From the NCBI RefSeq assembly GCF_030268085.1, contig NZ_BSDE01000001.1, forward strand, positions 434,001-498,000: 64,000 nt of DNA. The letters are read 5' to 3'. The notes beneath the pieces were generated by a model that worked only from the letters and a program-made list of their open reading frames with translations, made no database searches and had not been told where the DNA came from. The position numbers were made by a program, and so were the translations under genes. Shown here piece after piece: positions 26,769 through 52,345 of the stretch. Within the stretch, counting starts at the first letter, position 1. Every line of letters begins with the position of its first letter. This stretch comes from Geothrix limicola (GTDB taxonomy: Bacteria > Acidobacteriota > Holophagae > Holophagales > Holophagaceae).

Positions 26769-28576
26769 GGATGGACCTCCGGCATGTGATCGTTCGCATT
26801 CCTGTCCCTATCGGACGGGGTGGGGTTCTTCAGCAGGCGCGGCGCGAGCATGAGCGTTGCGCCGTAGCACATGAATCCGAGAAACAGCGTCAGTGGCCGT
26901 CCTACGGCCAGATCCTCGAAGAGGAATTTCAAAGCCGTGATGATCATCACGGGGTAGACGAGCCACTTCAGCTCCAGGTCCGGTGCCCGGCGGCCGAACC
27001 AGGCCAGCGAGATGATGAGGGCCGACAGCACGCCGGTCCGGACGGCGGCGAGCAGGCTGGGATCCACCGCGCCCGTTGAGAAGGCATGGCAGCAGATCCA
27101 GATGGCCAGCGCCCCGAGGCCGGCCGCCACGGCGGCGCCCAGGCACAGCACCAGTGGGCGGACCCGCGCGCTGACGAGGCCGGGAGCGCGCCGCCAGAGG
27201 AAGGCCGTGAAGGCGAGCGCGAGAAGGACCAGGCTCAGGGCCGCGGACCAGGGCAGAGAGGCGTCCGGCCCGGTCGGCGCCAGGAAGGCGCGGAGCGACC
27301 AGGCCGCGAAGCCCGAGGCGAGGGCCCCGGTTCCGAGGTACAGCGCGCTTTGAATGATGAAGACGGCGCGCCGCGACTGCAGCGCCAGCAGCATGGCGGC
27401 CAGGCCCAGCACGCTGCCCAGGGCGCCGGCGCCCGGCAGGGGCAGCAGCACGAGGACGCCAAGCAGCAGGAAGACGAGGCCGAAGAAGAGGAAGAAGATG
27501 AAATTCGCGTGGGTCTCCTCTTGATCGTCGCGGAAGGGGAAGGCCGTCGCGTAGCAGCCGAGGCCTGCCAGCGAAACCCCCGCGCCCAACAGCCCGGCAC
27601 CCGATCCGGAGATGAGGCTGACCCGCAGGGCGCCGCCGAAACCCAACAGCAGCACGAGGATGCTCTGGGCCACTTCGAAGGCGTTCACCACGCGGCGCCG
27701 CTGGAGCATCCGCACGGCGAAGCTGCCGAGGTAGATGAGCACGAGGGCGAGGGCAAACACCACGGTCCGGCCCGGCGTGATGCCGCGATAGGCCTCGGGG
27801 ATGCCTCCGGGCCACGCGGCGAGCGAGGTGAGGATCACCACGCCCAGGTCGGAGGCGAGGGCCGTGGGCCAGCGGAGGCTCTGCCAACGCCGGCCGTAGG
27901 TGACCCAGAGCGTGGTCGCGCCGAGGAGCAGCGAGACCGCGAGGAAGGGCTCGATGCTGCGGCGCGCCGACATCATGGCGAAGCCCGACAGGATCGAGGC
28001 CAGGGTGGCGGTCCAGATGATGGGCTGCAGGTCGCGTCGCCAAGCGACGACCCCGTGGATGCCCGTGACGGTGAAGAGGAGGAGGGCCGCGAGGACCGGC
28101 TCCAGGATGCCGAAGCGGGCCGTGGATTCCACGATGAGCGGGTAGGCGATCAGGATGGAGGCGAGGGCGTGGAAGGCCGAATCCAGCGGATGCTTGGCGC
28201 GCGCCGCGAGCAGGGCCCAGATGATGGCGTAGGCCAGGCCCAGCGCCACGCCCCATCCGCGATGGATGGTGCCGGCGTCCACCAGGGCCCGGATGAAGGT
28301 GGCTCCGCCGAGGATGAGGCAGGTGCGGCCGATGAGACCCATGAGGCGCACGGCGCTGGGAAGCCCGGGGGCGGGAACCATCGGATCAGAGACTGCCGTG
28401 CAGGGAATCGGCCTGGGGGAGGCGGCCGGTTGCTCTGGCACGGCACCTTCCAGCGCAGCGACCCGCGCCTCGAGTCTCGCGACCGTCTCAGCCAGGACGA
28501 CCAGGCGCGCTTCCAGGCCCTGGGGCAGGGCCTCCGCCGGATCGCGCCTGGAGGGATAGGCCTCGGCCGTGGACAT
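26765..28576 (-). CDS. DUF2339-like polytopic membrane protein
   Basis: A 603-residue protein. Residues ~10-50 form a short coiled coil (LEARLVVLAETVARLEARVA) followed by a Pro-rich linker and then around 14 or more membrane helices rich in Ala, Leu and Gly, the pattern of DUF2339 proteins, whose function is unknown. The ATG at 28576 is preferred because GAGG lies 8 nt upstream; a GTG at 28582 is possible. Its stop overlaps the cytochrome start (ATGA), so it is translated with the redox subunits. That coupling is the main hint to its role. Confidence 0.72.
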   Translation of the reverse strand: MSTAEAYPSRRDPAEALPQGLEARLVVLAETVARLEARVAALEGAVPEQPAASPRPIPCTAVSDPMVPAPGLPSAVRLMGLIGRTCLILGGATFIRALVDAGTIHRGWGVALGLAYAIIWALLAARAKHPLDSAFHALASILIAYPLIVESTARFGILEPVLAALLLFTVTGIHGVVAWRRDLQPIIWTATLASILSGFAMMSARRSIEPFLAVSLLLGATTLWVTYGRRWQSLRWPTALASDLGVVILTSLAAWPGGIPEAYRGITPGRTVVFALALVLIYLGSFAVRMLQRRRVVNAFEVAQSILVLLLGFGGALRVSLISGSGAGLLGAGVSLAGLGCYATAFPFRDDQEETHANFIFFLFFGLVFLLLGVLVLLPLPGAGALGSVLGLAAMLLALQSRRAVFIIQSALYLGTGALASGFAAWSLRAFLAPTGPDASLPWSAALSLVLLALAFTAFLWRRAPGLVSARVRPLVLCLGAAVAAGLGALAIWICCHAFSTGAVDPSLLAAVRTGVLSALIISLAWFGRRAPDLELKWLVYPVMIITALKFLFEDLAVGRPLTLFLGFMCYGATLMLAPRLLKNPTPSDRDRNANDHMPEVHP

Positions 28577-48779: not shown

Positions 48780-48805
48780 CGAGTCCATCCAGGAGGAACA
48801 ACCCC

Positions 48806-49525
48806 ATGCGATACGGAACCTACCTCGTCCCTGCAGCCGTCGTGCTCACCCTTGGCAGCTTGGCTTGCAAGCCCCCCAAGACCGCCGAGCAGATCAAGCA
48901 GGAGACGCAGGCTGCCTTCAACGAAGGCGTCCAGGCGTTCAAGGACGGGAAGGCTCGTGAGACGAACCCGTACGTGAACGACAAGGAAAACCCGCACAAG
49001 ATGCAGGGCTGGTACGACGGCTGGGACAAGGCCAAGGCCGACAAGGATGCCGCTGACAAGGCCGCCGCCGACAAGGCTGCCGCCGACAAGGCCGCCGCCG
49101 ACGCGAAGGCCGCCGCCGACCGCGCCGCCGCCGAAGAGGCTGCCCGCAAGGCCGCCGAGGCCGAAAAGGCTGCCGCCTTCAAGGCTGCCGCCGCCAAGGT
49201 GCTCGTGAACATCCACTTCGACTACGACAAGTCGGAGATCAAGGAGAAGGACCGCGCCATCCTGCAGGGCATCGCCGACTTCATGAAGGCCTACCCCGCT
49301 GCCAAGGTTGAGATCGAAGGCCACTGCGACGAGCGCGGCACCAACGAGTACAACCTCGCCCTCGGCAACAAGCGCGCCGCCGCCGCCCTCGCCTACCTGA
49401 AGACCCTGGGCGTCGACGAAGCCCGCTTCACCACCATCAGCTACGGCAAGGAAAAGCCCCTTTGCACCGAGGCGAAGGAAGCCTGCTGGAGCCAGAACCG
49501 CCGCGGCGAGTTCAAGCTCAAGTAA
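48806..49525 (+). CDS. pal: Peptidoglycan-associated lipoprotein Pal with RMF-like motif and Ala-rich coiled coil
   Basis: A 239-residue lipoprotein with lipobox LGSLAC (C21). Residues 41-76 have an unusual pattern, G-x2-A-x3-G-x5-NPY then W-x2-GW-x2-A, which matches the ribosome modulation factor motif spacing. Residues ~76-130 are near-identical KAAADKAAAD-type repeats forming a charged helix. The C-terminal OmpA-like domain (VNIHFDYDKSEIKEKDRAIL, IEGHCDERGTNEYNLALGNK) binds peptidoglycan. AGGAGG at 48791-48796 selects the ATG at 48806. It anchors the outer membrane to the wall with TolB. Confidence 0.93.
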   Translation: MRYGTYLVPAAVVLTLGSLACKPPKTAEQIKQETQAAFNEGVQAFKDGKARETNPYVNDKENPHKMQGWYDGWDKAKADKDAADKAAADKAAADKAAADAKAAADRAAAEEAARKAAEAEKAAAFKAAAAKVLVNIHFDYDKSEIKEKDRAILQGIADFMKAYPAAKVEIEGHCDERGTNEYNLALGNKRAAAALAYLKTLGVDEARFTTISYGKEKPLCTEAKEACWSQNRRGEFKLK

Positions 49526-49542
49526 CCTGGTCCGCATCGCGT

Positions 49543-49575
49543 GAAGCGGGGGCGAAAGCCCCCGCTTCTTTTCTT
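49543..49575 (+). terminator. Intrinsic terminator after pal
   Basis: An 11-bp GC-rich stem (49543-49553 with 49558-49568) closed by a GAAA tetraloop and followed by TTTTCTT. A textbook rho-independent terminator 17 nt after the pal stop. Confidence 0.85.
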
Positions 49576-49652
49576 CGGGGGTTCCCGATGACGCGCATAC
49601 CCCCGAACCCCCGCGCCGGGGCCTGGATGAACCCGGCCCCGGCTTTCATCAA
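49573..49652 (+). repeat. Diverged single copy of the 80-bp hairpin repeat
   Basis: It contains cgggggttc (49576-49584) pairing with gaacccccg (49605-49613), then gccggggcc (49615-49623) pairing with ggccccggc (49635-49643), ending tttcatc. The outer sequence and order match the reverse complement of the tandem unit at 51551-51819, but the inner stem has a different sequence that still pairs perfectly. Confidence 0.6.
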
Positions 49653-49696
49653 ACAACCACTTTTCGATTAGCATGAAGTCGAGTCCTGGAGTTCCC

Positions 49697-50413
49697 ATGA
49701 GCGCCCGCACGATGATGCTTCCCGCCCTGGCCGCGCTGCTTGCCATCGGATGCGGATCCGAGGAACAACTTCGCCGTGTGGAGCAGGAAGTAGGCGATCT
49801 CAAGCTGGAGGTCTTCAAGCTCCGCCAGGTGGTGGAGGAGGGCAACAAGAAGGCGCAGGCGGATCAGGACGCCGCCGCCGAGGCCCGCGTGCAGGATCGC
49901 CGCTTCCAGGCGGATCTGCAGGAGAGCCTGCGCCAGGTCCAGGACACCACCCGCGTGATGAACAACCGGCTCGGCAGCCTGCCCAAGGGCGGGACCCGGC
50001 CTCCCGTCGAAGGGCCCGCGCCGACCACGACCGCCGCCGAGGACGAGCGCGCCTACAACGCCGCGGTGCTGGACTACAACCGGGGCAACTATCCCCTCGC
50101 GGCCGAGGGCCTCGAACTCTTCCTGAAGACCTATCCGCAGAGCGCGAAGCGGCCCGACGCCCTCTTTTTCCTGGGCCTCTGCCACTACAACCAGCGCGCC
50201 TACGACAAGGCCCAGACGACCTTCGATCGCATCATCAAGGATCACGCGGCCTCGCCCCAGTTCCTCCCGGCGAAGCTCAAGCGCGCCCAGTGCCTGCTCA
50301 AGCAGGGCCTGAAGCCCGCCGCCGTGAAGGCCTTCCGCGAGCTGGTGGACGGGTTCTCCGGTAGCGCCGAGGCCCGCACGGCCCAGCAGGAACTGAGCGA
50401 CCTGGGGCTTTAG
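49697..50413 (+). CDS. cpoB: Tol-Pal system coordinator CpoB (YbgF-like)
   Basis: A 238-residue protein. A signal sequence ends LLAIGC, a lipobox, unlike soluble E. coli CpoB. Residues ~20-90 are a coiled coil (VEQEVGDLKLEVFKLRQVVE), a Pro-rich linker follows, and three TPR units fill the C-terminal half (YNRGNYPLAAEGLELFLKTY, then YDKAQTTFDRIIKDH). CpoB coordinates Tol with cell-wall synthesis at division. It follows pal across a terminator and a hairpin repeat, so it may have its own promoter. Its stop overlaps that of mutY on the other strand. Confidence 0.88.
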   Translation: MSARTMMLPALAALLAIGCGSEEQLRRVEQEVGDLKLEVFKLRQVVEEGNKKAQADQDAAAEARVQDRRFQADLQESLRQVQDTTRVMNNRLGSLPKGGTRPPVEGPAPTTTAAEDERAYNAAVLDYNRGNYPLAAEGLELFLKTYPQSAKRPDALFFLGLCHYNQRAYDKAQTTFDRIIKDHAASPQFLPAKLKRAQCLLKQGLKPAAVKAFRELVDGFSGSAEARTAQQELSDLGL

Positions 50414-51504
50414 ACCGCCGAGCAGGCCCGGATCAGCGCCGCGGGATCCGGGGCTTCCATGGGCACCTGTCCCGGCGTCTCCAGCAGGTCGCGCAGGCGC
50501 TGATCCCGCTTGCCCAGGGGGAGCGCCGCGAGCTCGGCGCGGGGCACCCAGCGCAGGCCTGGGGCGGGCGTGAAGCGGGCGTCCAGGCTGAGGTGCAGGG
50601 GGTTCACCGCTTCGCGACGATGGGTGTAAACCTGGGTCCAGCCCGGCCAGGCACGGACGGCCCCTGGAGCGGGCACCAGGGCCTGGAGGGAGGGCTCGGC
50701 GGCTTCGAGGGCGGGCCAGCGCCAAAGCCCCGCCAGCAGCCCCTTGGCGGCAGGCGGATGGAGCAGCACGTGGCCTTCCGCTTCGAGGGCGTAGAGCCAC
50801 AGGGTGGAGGCCTTCGGCTTCGGCCGTTTCGCCACCGGCGGGATGTCGCCGGTCCTCCCAGTGAGATGGGCTCCGCATCGCTCCGAAAGGGGGCAGGTCG
50901 CGCAGACGGGTGAGGGTAAACAAATCGTGGCGCCCAGCTCCATGAGGGCCTGGGTCATGCGGGAGGGGCCGTGCGCCGCGAGGGCGGGCTCAAGCCAGGT
51001 CCGGAAGCGGACGGCCTGGTCCTTGGGATCCCCTTCGATCAGCAGCAGGCGCGCCAGCACGCGGAAGGCGTTGCCATCGAGGGCCGGCGTGGGCCACTGG
51101 AACGCGATGGATCCCACCGCGGCGGCGGTGTAGGGGCCGAGGCCCGGTAGGCCGGTCAGCCCATCCAGATCGGTGGGCCAGCCCTCCGCGGCCACGGTTC
51201 CCGCGGCGGCCTTCAGGAAGCGCGCGCGGCGGTAATAGCCCAAGCCCTCCCAGGCCTTGTGGACGGCGTCTTCCCCGGCTTCGGCGAGGTGCTGCGGCGT
51301 CGGAAACTGCTCCATCCAGCGGTTGAAATAGGGCGTGACGGTGGCGACCTGGGTCTGCTGCAGCATCAGCTCCGAGACCAGCACCGCGTAGGGATCCGGA
51401 TGGGGCGCATCCAGATCCGCCGCCCGCCAGGGCAGATCGCGCCGCACCCGATCGAACCAGGGCGCCAGCGGCGCGAGAAGCTCAGGAGAAGGAATCCACG
51501 ACAT
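50410..51504 (-). CDS. mutY: A/G-specific adenine glycosylase
   Basis: A 364-residue base-excision-repair enzyme removing A opposite 8-oxoG. SELMLQQTQVATVTPYF contains the catalytic Glu, GLGYYRRARFLKAAA and LTGLPGLGPYTAAAVGSIAF are the helix-hairpin-helix region with LDGNAFRVLARLL after, and the Fe-S cluster cysteines are C-x6-C-x2-C-x5-C in CLPSPVCATCPLSERC. The C-terminal Nudix-like 8-oxoG-recognition domain is present. MutT is encoded 3 kb away. Confidence 0.94.
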   Translation of the reverse strand: MSWIPSPELLAPLAPWFDRVRRDLPWRAADLDAPHPDPYAVLVSELMLQQTQVATVTPYFNRWMEQFPTPQHLAEAGEDAVHKAWEGLGYYRRARFLKAAAGTVAAEGWPTDLDGLTGLPGLGPYTAAAVGSIAFQWPTPALDGNAFRVLARLLLIEGDPKDQAVRFRTWLEPALAAHGPSRMTQALMELGATICLPSPVCATCPLSERCGAHLTGRTGDIPPVAKRPKPKASTLWLYALEAEGHVLLHPPAAKGLLAGLWRWPALEAAEPSLQALVPAPGAVRAWPGWTQVYTHRREAVNPLHLSLDARFTPAPGLRWVPRAELAALPLGKRDQRLRDLLETPGQVPMEAPDPAALIRACSAV

Positions 51505-51550
51505 GTTTTGACGCTACCAGTTCTCGCAGGCCGAAAGCAGGATCGCGAGG

Positions 51551-51819
51551 GTATTCGCACAGCGAGGAACCCCCGGAGAGGATGAAAGCAGGATCTCGGC
51601 TTTGCCGAGATCCTGCGCGGGGGTCCGGGGGTGTTCGCGCAGCGAGGAACCCGCGGAGAGGATGAAAGCAGGAGCGCGGCTTTGCCGAGATCCTGCGCGG
51701 GGGCCCGGGGGTGTTCGCGCAGCGAGGAACCCCCGGAGAGGATGAAAGCAGGAGCGCGGCTTCGCCGAGATCCTGCGCGGGGGTCCGGGGGTGTTCGCGC
51801 AGCGTGGAACCCCCGGATA
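51551..51819. repeat. 80-bp tandem repeat with nested hairpins, about 3.4 copies
   Basis: Units start at 51551, 51631, 51711 and 51791 (partial), with a period of exactly 80 bp and few differences. Each unit contains gaacccccgga and tccgggggtgttc, which can pair, enclosing a second hairpin; in the first unit gcaggatctcggc and gccgagatcctgc pair perfectly over 13 bp around a TTT loop. The 80-bp period rotates the frame, so it does not code. It fills the gap between mutY and the tRNA terminator. It is not CRISPR, because units are contiguous with no unique spacers. Confidence 0.88.
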
Positions 51820-51825
51820 GAACTG

Positions 51826-51865
51826 CCAAAGAAAAAGCGCCGGAAGACCGGCGCTTTTTCTTTGG
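51826..51865. terminator. Bidirectional terminator of tRNA-Leu
   Basis: A perfect 18-bp palindrome (51826-51843 with 51848-51865, loop aaga) with A and T tracts on both sides (aaagaaaaagcgccgg...). It ends transcription of the minus-strand tRNA and overlaps its CCA end. Confidence 0.88.
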
Positions 51866-51948
51866 TGCCCGCGAGCAGACTCGAACTGCTACGGCTTGTG
51901 GCCACCACCCCCTCAAGATGGCGTGTCTACCAATTTCACCACGCGGGC
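51863..51948 (-). tRNA. leuU: tRNA-Leu (anticodon GAG)
   Basis: An 86-nt class II tRNA. The acceptor arms GCCCGCG and CGCGGGC pair fully, the D-loop has AATTGGTAGACAC, the anticodon stem CCATC/GGTGG encloses loop TTGAGGG (anticodon GAG), a long variable arm follows, and the T-arm contains GTTCGAGTC. CCA is encoded. It lies 61 nt downstream of secG on the same strand; the secG-leuU(GAG) order is also found in E. coli. Confidence 0.95.
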
Positions 51949-52009
51949 AACGTGGAAACCTAAGTGTCTCTCAAAGCGCGGATGCAGTCAATCACCCGTT
52001 TTGCAGAGC

Positions 52010-52345
52010 CTACTTCTTGACGGGTGCAGGCGCGGGAACGGCAGGCGCGGGAACCGCGGGAGCGGGCGTCGTGGCGACGGCCTTGTCCATCGTCTTGTCC
52101 AGCACCGAGCGGTTCTCGCGGATGATCAGGACTTCAATGAACAGGGTGGTGGCGAGGAAGCCCGCCGCCAGCCAGTAGGTGGCCTTGGAGAGGAAGGGCG
52201 TGGCGCCCTGGGCGCCGAAGGCCGAATTGGCGCCGCCCCCACCGAAGGAAGCCCCGAGACCGCCCTTGGTGCCGGGCTGCAGGAGCACCGTCCCGATGAG
52301 GAGGACACCGAAGAGAACGAGAAGTGTGATGGCGAGGCCGTTCAT
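52010..52345 (-). CDS. secG: Preprotein translocase subunit SecG
   Basis: A 111-residue SecG with two membrane helices ([20 protein letters not shown] and a second near residues 55-75) separated by the conserved loop [18 protein letters not shown] Pro/Ala tail ending APAPVKK is an extension. SecG assists SecYE-mediated export. GGAG precedes the ATG at 52345. tRNA-Leu follows and may share its transcript. Confidence 0.92.

Follow-up and report, generated by a model that had tools for sequence, protein, structure and literature searches.

The REP/PU/BIME sequences of E. coli and others, including the GTAG and CGTC families, are closest in kind to the element described here. Both are short, dispersed, palindromic, and extragenic, and both often lie near stop codons. 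GTAG REPs frequently provide the stop of the ORF beside them (PMC3733652), and a passage citing earlier work reports that REPs located at most 15 nt from a stop stall ribosomes and lower translation (PMC12306157). Different from REPs, the Geothrix element is ~80 bp long, has two hairpins, one of which is conserved in structure only, and shows a docking peak at exactly 6 nt. In the broad sense, in which REPs are palindromes present between genes in many copies, the element agrees with them, having 43 copies with stable hairpins, most of which lie past an ORF end. The GTAG/CGTC tag is not in the consensus of the element in two copy alignments, and the search for a RAYT/Y1 transposase gene found a 36-residue Y1_Tnp fragment in the source genome and nothing in 22 of 24 other Geothrix genomes, all of which have the element. 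Because neither the REP end tag nor a RAYT was found, the element is REP-like and not a classical REP. It is a new family, a variant and relative of the REPs rather than a member of the classical GTAG REPs.

Intrinsic terminators have in common with the element a 12–13-bp hairpin, corresponding to its inner one, a T-biased tail, and evolution by two-sided changes, as in the native pal terminator. In contrast to them, the inner hairpin of the element is joined to a sequence-conserved repeat, the T tract is short, and docking occurs at 6 nt. The integron attC site contains one hairpin conserved in structure over sequence and occurs in tandem arrays, and the element resembles it in both respects. 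However, the array units of the element have no genes or cassettes between them, and conserved boxes of the attC type are not seen by eye. MITEs and the pneumococcal BOX/RUP repeats, as non-autonomous, modular, intergenic, transcribed hairpins, are similar to the element in kind. The Geothrix element has no identified parent transposon and no clear terminal inverted repeats at its ends.

The pal–cpoB element belongs to a Geothrix-centered, dispersed family of ~80-bp, two-hairpin, REP/BIME-like repeats at gene 3′ ends, for which we regard a role in the 3′ UTR as fairly probable.

The pal–cpoB copy and its dispersed family

The source genome has 4.23 Mb, and the window, meaning the whole 64,000-nt stretch analyzed here, spans positions 434001–498000 of its contig. 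The element lies between the stop codon of pal (49523–49525) and the start of cpoB (49697), the latter having orthologues at 56–87% identity in Geothrix and other Holophagaceae (Acidobacteriota), which identifies the genome as Geothrix-type. A sequence-only reading had proposed that 49573–49652 follows the reverse complement of the 80-bp unit of a tandem array in the window, and we confirmed this for 49574–49652 (Table 1). It had also noted an inner stem that differs from that of the array yet pairs. Both sequence and fold agree, with the stem gccggggcc/ggccccggc at 49615–49623 and 49635–49643; the arms of the outer stem are at 49574–49582 and 49599–49607. The copy folds at −42.8 kcal/mol, compared with −30.6 ± 3.3 kcal/mol for shuffles. 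The tip of its outer hairpin is no longer family-like in pairing, which marks it as a worn copy. It begins 49 nt past the stop, not 6, and sits behind pal's own terminator, which looks functional. Hence, it is atypical and the poorest witness of family function, and is probably a later, worn insertion behind the pal terminator that adds little. Within pal itself, imperfect 15-bp repeats (49025–49199, ~11 copies) encode an Ala/Asp/Lys-rich linker.

Table 1. Coordinates of the features in the window
Feature	Position	Strand	Basis
Element copy, diverged, single	49574–49652	+	Covariance model, 65.2 bits, E = 1.8e-9 (whole genome); BLAST, E = 4.5e-5
Outer hairpin of the pal copy, TTCGGGGG ... CCCCCGAA, tip diverged	49574–49608	+	Fold, alignment
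Inner hairpin of the pal copy, GCCGGGGCC ... GGCCCCGGC, then TTTC	49615–49643	+	Fold
Native intrinsic terminator of pal, GAAGCGGGGGC-GAAA-GCCCCCGCTTC-TTTTC, outside the family	49543–49573	+	Sequence; kept in relatives
CTTTTC, left copy, possible 6-bp direct repeat around the insert	49568–49573	+	By eye; weak, low-complexity, beside T tract
CTTTTC, right copy, possible 6-bp direct repeat around the insert	49660–49665	+	By eye
Tandem array, three full 80-bp units and a broken fourth	51547–51822	−	Tandem Repeats Finder, 3.4 copies; covariance-model matches
Terminator hairpin of the tRNA-Leu gene, adjoining the array, outside the family	51822–51864	−	Sequence

A covariance model was built from 15 copies, excluding the pal copy. 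It has 54 matches in the source genome at E ≤ 0.1, of which 43 reach E ≤ 2e-4, and the array used as query has 50. The pal copy ranks 26th among the 54, and by BLAST it matches another dispersed copy. The model thus brought up further copies together with a pal copy that it had not been built on, and the proposed membership of the array in a dispersed family holds. A further model match in the window (27859–27931, E = 0.66) was taken as chance. The family plan consists of a stop codon, ~6 nt with the consensus TGYTNT, the outer hairpin CCGGGGGTTCC-NCGCTGCGCGN-ACACCCCCGG, the string RCCCCCGC, the inner hairpin, and a T-biased tail. The inner hairpin, with its three-base loop, begins ~9 nt past the first hairpin, whose sequence is conserved.

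All Geothrix genomes searched contain the family (37 of 37 in one search and 47 of 47 in another), with 4–53 copies each. Among the Holophagaceae beyond Geothrix, it is patchy and occurs in seven other genera, one genome having 23 copies and the others 1–3, and it is absent from 23 of 23 genomes outside the Holophagaceae. A weak model match (E = 1.6e-4) before cpoB in a more distant relative (L084, 3286–3366) may be chance or a remnant. In the Rfam search of window positions 48800–52300 by cmscan, no family reached its gathering score, and a narrow literature search returned nothing pairing Geothrix with an intergenic repeat. At one locus, the outer-hairpin tip is short, carries an extra hairpin of ~35 nt, or carries a longer module. 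In L032, L033, L139/L199, L243, L268, and L323, the tip contains another palindromic module (GGAGGCTCCATGTCC...ACATGGAGGCGCGCAGCGC, in either orientation), at times beside the additional 35-nt hairpin. Nested repeats seem to favor the tip.

The array lies behind tRNA-Leu. The stem quoted for its unit in the sequence-only reading, gcaggatctcggc/gccgagatcctgc, is perfect in one of the three full units only, while the other two share two mismatches; that part of the description is therefore correct for a single unit. The element is also found behind the tRNA-Leu terminator in L043, L050, L067, L077, and L052 (partly masked), and L094 may keep a remnant there. Head-to-tail arrays with a period of ~76–80 bp occur at different loci across species, namely the one in the window, L241 6157–6465, and L077 6374–6615.

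Spacing from stop codons and site occupancy

Docking at 6 nt is a feature newly found here; together with the genus-wide spread it is most telling on the role of the element, and neither was visible to the earlier reading. The outer hairpin starts exactly 6 nt past the stop of the upstream ORF in 63 of 142 distinct copies. As orthologous copies are not independent, the figure for the source genome alone (19 of 45 copies) is cleaner. Random anchors in the same DNA are at 6 nt in 10 of 3980 cases. Behind a fliN-like gene, the stop (TGA, TAA, or TAG) and the six spacer letters vary by species, while the spacing mostly stays at 6. Native terminator stems start 12–29 nt past the stop, mostly 16–20 and never 6, in a sample dominated by a few genes. 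By geometry, a stem located 6 nt behind the codon in the A site would be at the point where mRNA enters the ribosome. Stop usage beside the elements (TGA 67, TAA 18, and TAG 16, against a background of 63, 18, and 37) is shifted only slightly. In several copies between sucC and sucD, the last codon and the stop of sucC differ from those in species with an empty site, a sequence difference suggesting that the element can supply its own stop triplet.

Element positions are partly common to several species, and some sites are empty. The pal–cpoB site is filled only in the source genome; ~50 relatives having the interval lack the element and retain the pal terminator only, and this terminator is present in ~45 relatives without the element. 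The string CTTTTC, which flanks the pal insert on both sides, occurs once in relatives, so that a target duplication is possible but weak. The tRNA-Leu site is filled in a few relatives and empty in the majority. The sucC–sucD site is filled in 10 of 30 genomes (L285–L314), and the copies there, inside the operon, have the inner hairpin and no T tract. The genus hence offers a natural experiment on hairpins directly behind stops: each genome has dozens of copies, the site at a given gene may be occupied or empty, the 6-nt spacing is fixed, and one hairpin varies in sequence while staying paired. It makes the long-debated roles of REP-like elements in translation termination, transcription termination, and mRNA stability testable between species with and without the element.

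Covariation of the inner stem

We then inspected how the inner stem changes among copies. In a MAFFT alignment of 15 copies, which was not fitted to the structure, 10 of 13 inner pairs are changed on both sides. The same alignment contains 48 double-change cells; shuffling gave 12.4 ± 3.0, and slid structures no more than 14. Copies from other Geothrix genomes, analyzed as a separate set, have 103 such cells against 23.8 ± 4.2 shuffled, although this set was aligned to the model and so leans to the structure, and it includes a few weak reverse-strand matches. The outer stem is nearly invariant except at its tip, where the pair types are G–C, U–A, and C–G.

Orthologous copies were placed via their flanking genes in the source genome and in G006, G018, and G026. 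At one locus the inner stems read GCAAAA..TTTTGC and GAAGAA..TTCTTC, and further arm changes include GCGAAGG versus GAGAAGG and GAAGAAG versus GACCGAG and GAACGAG. Over ten orthologous loci, with stems picked by hand, there are 30 compensated two-sided changes, 10 one-sided changes, and six two-sided changes that yield no pair. Across relatives, two-sided changes are seen in the native pal terminator as they are in the inner hairpin. On the presumed transcript strand, G–U shows no excess over A–C (13 versus 23), a comparison that speaks neither for nor against the strand, since the native pal terminators, with two G–U pairs, have too few such pairs to calibrate it. The third loop base is A in 102 of 115 distinct stem-loops, while the mirror case, T at the first base, is found in 19 of 115.

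The kept pairing had been read as pointing to selection on secondary structure. The excess of two-sided changes over shuffled and slid controls, its recurrence in the independent set, and the orthologous loci all speak for this. Since template-switch correction of palindromes can produce two-sided changes as well, selection is likely, not proved, and part of the covariation could have been made by such correction of the arms. This concern applies to every covariation-based RNA claim on perfect palindromes, and the family provides a clean case for telling RNA selection from template-switch correction as the source of covariation.

A proposed role at gene 3′ ends and its rivals

In the role that we propose, the element would be transcribed within the 3′ UTR. 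Its first hairpin would be positioned at the mRNA entry of a ribosome whose A site is occupied by the stop codon, and may thereby affect termination, ribosome release, or stability of the 3′ end. Where a T tract follows it, the second hairpin would act as a moderate intrinsic terminator or block the 3′ end. Past the inner stem, T occupies the first three positions in 70, 66, and 54% of cases and ca. 30% thereafter. The best reading of the compared sequences is that the inner hairpin appears to evolve like a native intrinsic terminator. The role is favored by the orientation and spacing to the stop, the T-biased tail, the strand-specific loop, and this likeness to the evolution of the native pal terminator. 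Against it count the missing G–U excess, the shortness of the T tract, and the operon-internal copies without a T tract. Downstream genes are convergent in 12 cases and on the same strand in 10, which indicates that copies are not confined to operon ends; the element as a constant operon end is not supported.

Chance resemblance of two GC-rich palindromes is refuted, its probability being close to nil: the GC richness of the region and the frequency of hairpins at gene ends would favor it, but the pal copy reaches E = 1.8e-9 with a model made from other copies, 100 shuffles of the window gave no match to the family core even with three mismatches allowed, and the pattern read backward gave 0 matches versus 8. 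It is also improbable, in our judgment, that the two-sided changes arose mainly from DNA template switching, by which one arm of a palindrome is copied onto the other and pairing needs no selection. Homogenization of arms by this process is established (PMC8604942, PMC7202029). It predicts few one-sided intermediates, as observed (10 versus 30), and no G–U excess, and one orthologous set with the loop ttg versus aaa/aac (L263 versus L220/L230) could represent an inverted spacer. However, repeated spacer inversion would erase the orientation of the loop, which is kept, mismatched stems persist in two of three redundant tandem units, and template switching leaves the docking at stop codons and the T tail unexplained.

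A mobile element that targets gene ends and terminators, with hairpins read as single-stranded DNA as in IS200/IS605, REP, and attC, and with host function secondary, is possible, though we consider it unlikely as the main explanation. The patchy occupancy of sites, the repeated insertion beside terminators at pal and tRNA-Leu, the head-to-tail arrays at different loci in different species, and the interchangeable tip modules of the outer hairpin at one locus all fit an element moved by a yet-unnamed enzyme. On the other hand, a linked transposase was not found in the source genome, where Y1_Tnp is only the fragment mentioned above, and most of the other element-bearing Geothrix genomes searched have no Y1_Tnp. 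Moreover, two-sided changes maintain the stem long after insertion at one locus, where an idle insertion would decay. A RAYT as the mover was rejected because its gene was not found, and the mover may be a lost enzyme or one outside the Y1 type. The 3′-UTR role and mobility could be joined in a ribosome-docked 3′-UTR element, in which selection would fix the conserved hairpin exactly where mRNA enters the terminating ribosome, along with the hairpin whose structure alone is conserved, while non-RAYT machinery, aimed at stops or bringing its own stop, would have spread the copies. We put this fuller version forward tentatively, as a rather unlikely one in its entirety.

Known DNA uptake sequences have far more copies per genome than the tens found here, and a function as DNA uptake signal was set aside for this reason. 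As a separate observation, most of the other Geothrix genomes searched are without any IS200-type Y1 transposase, and one genome, G020 (L127), has six copies of a single such transposase, all with the same score.
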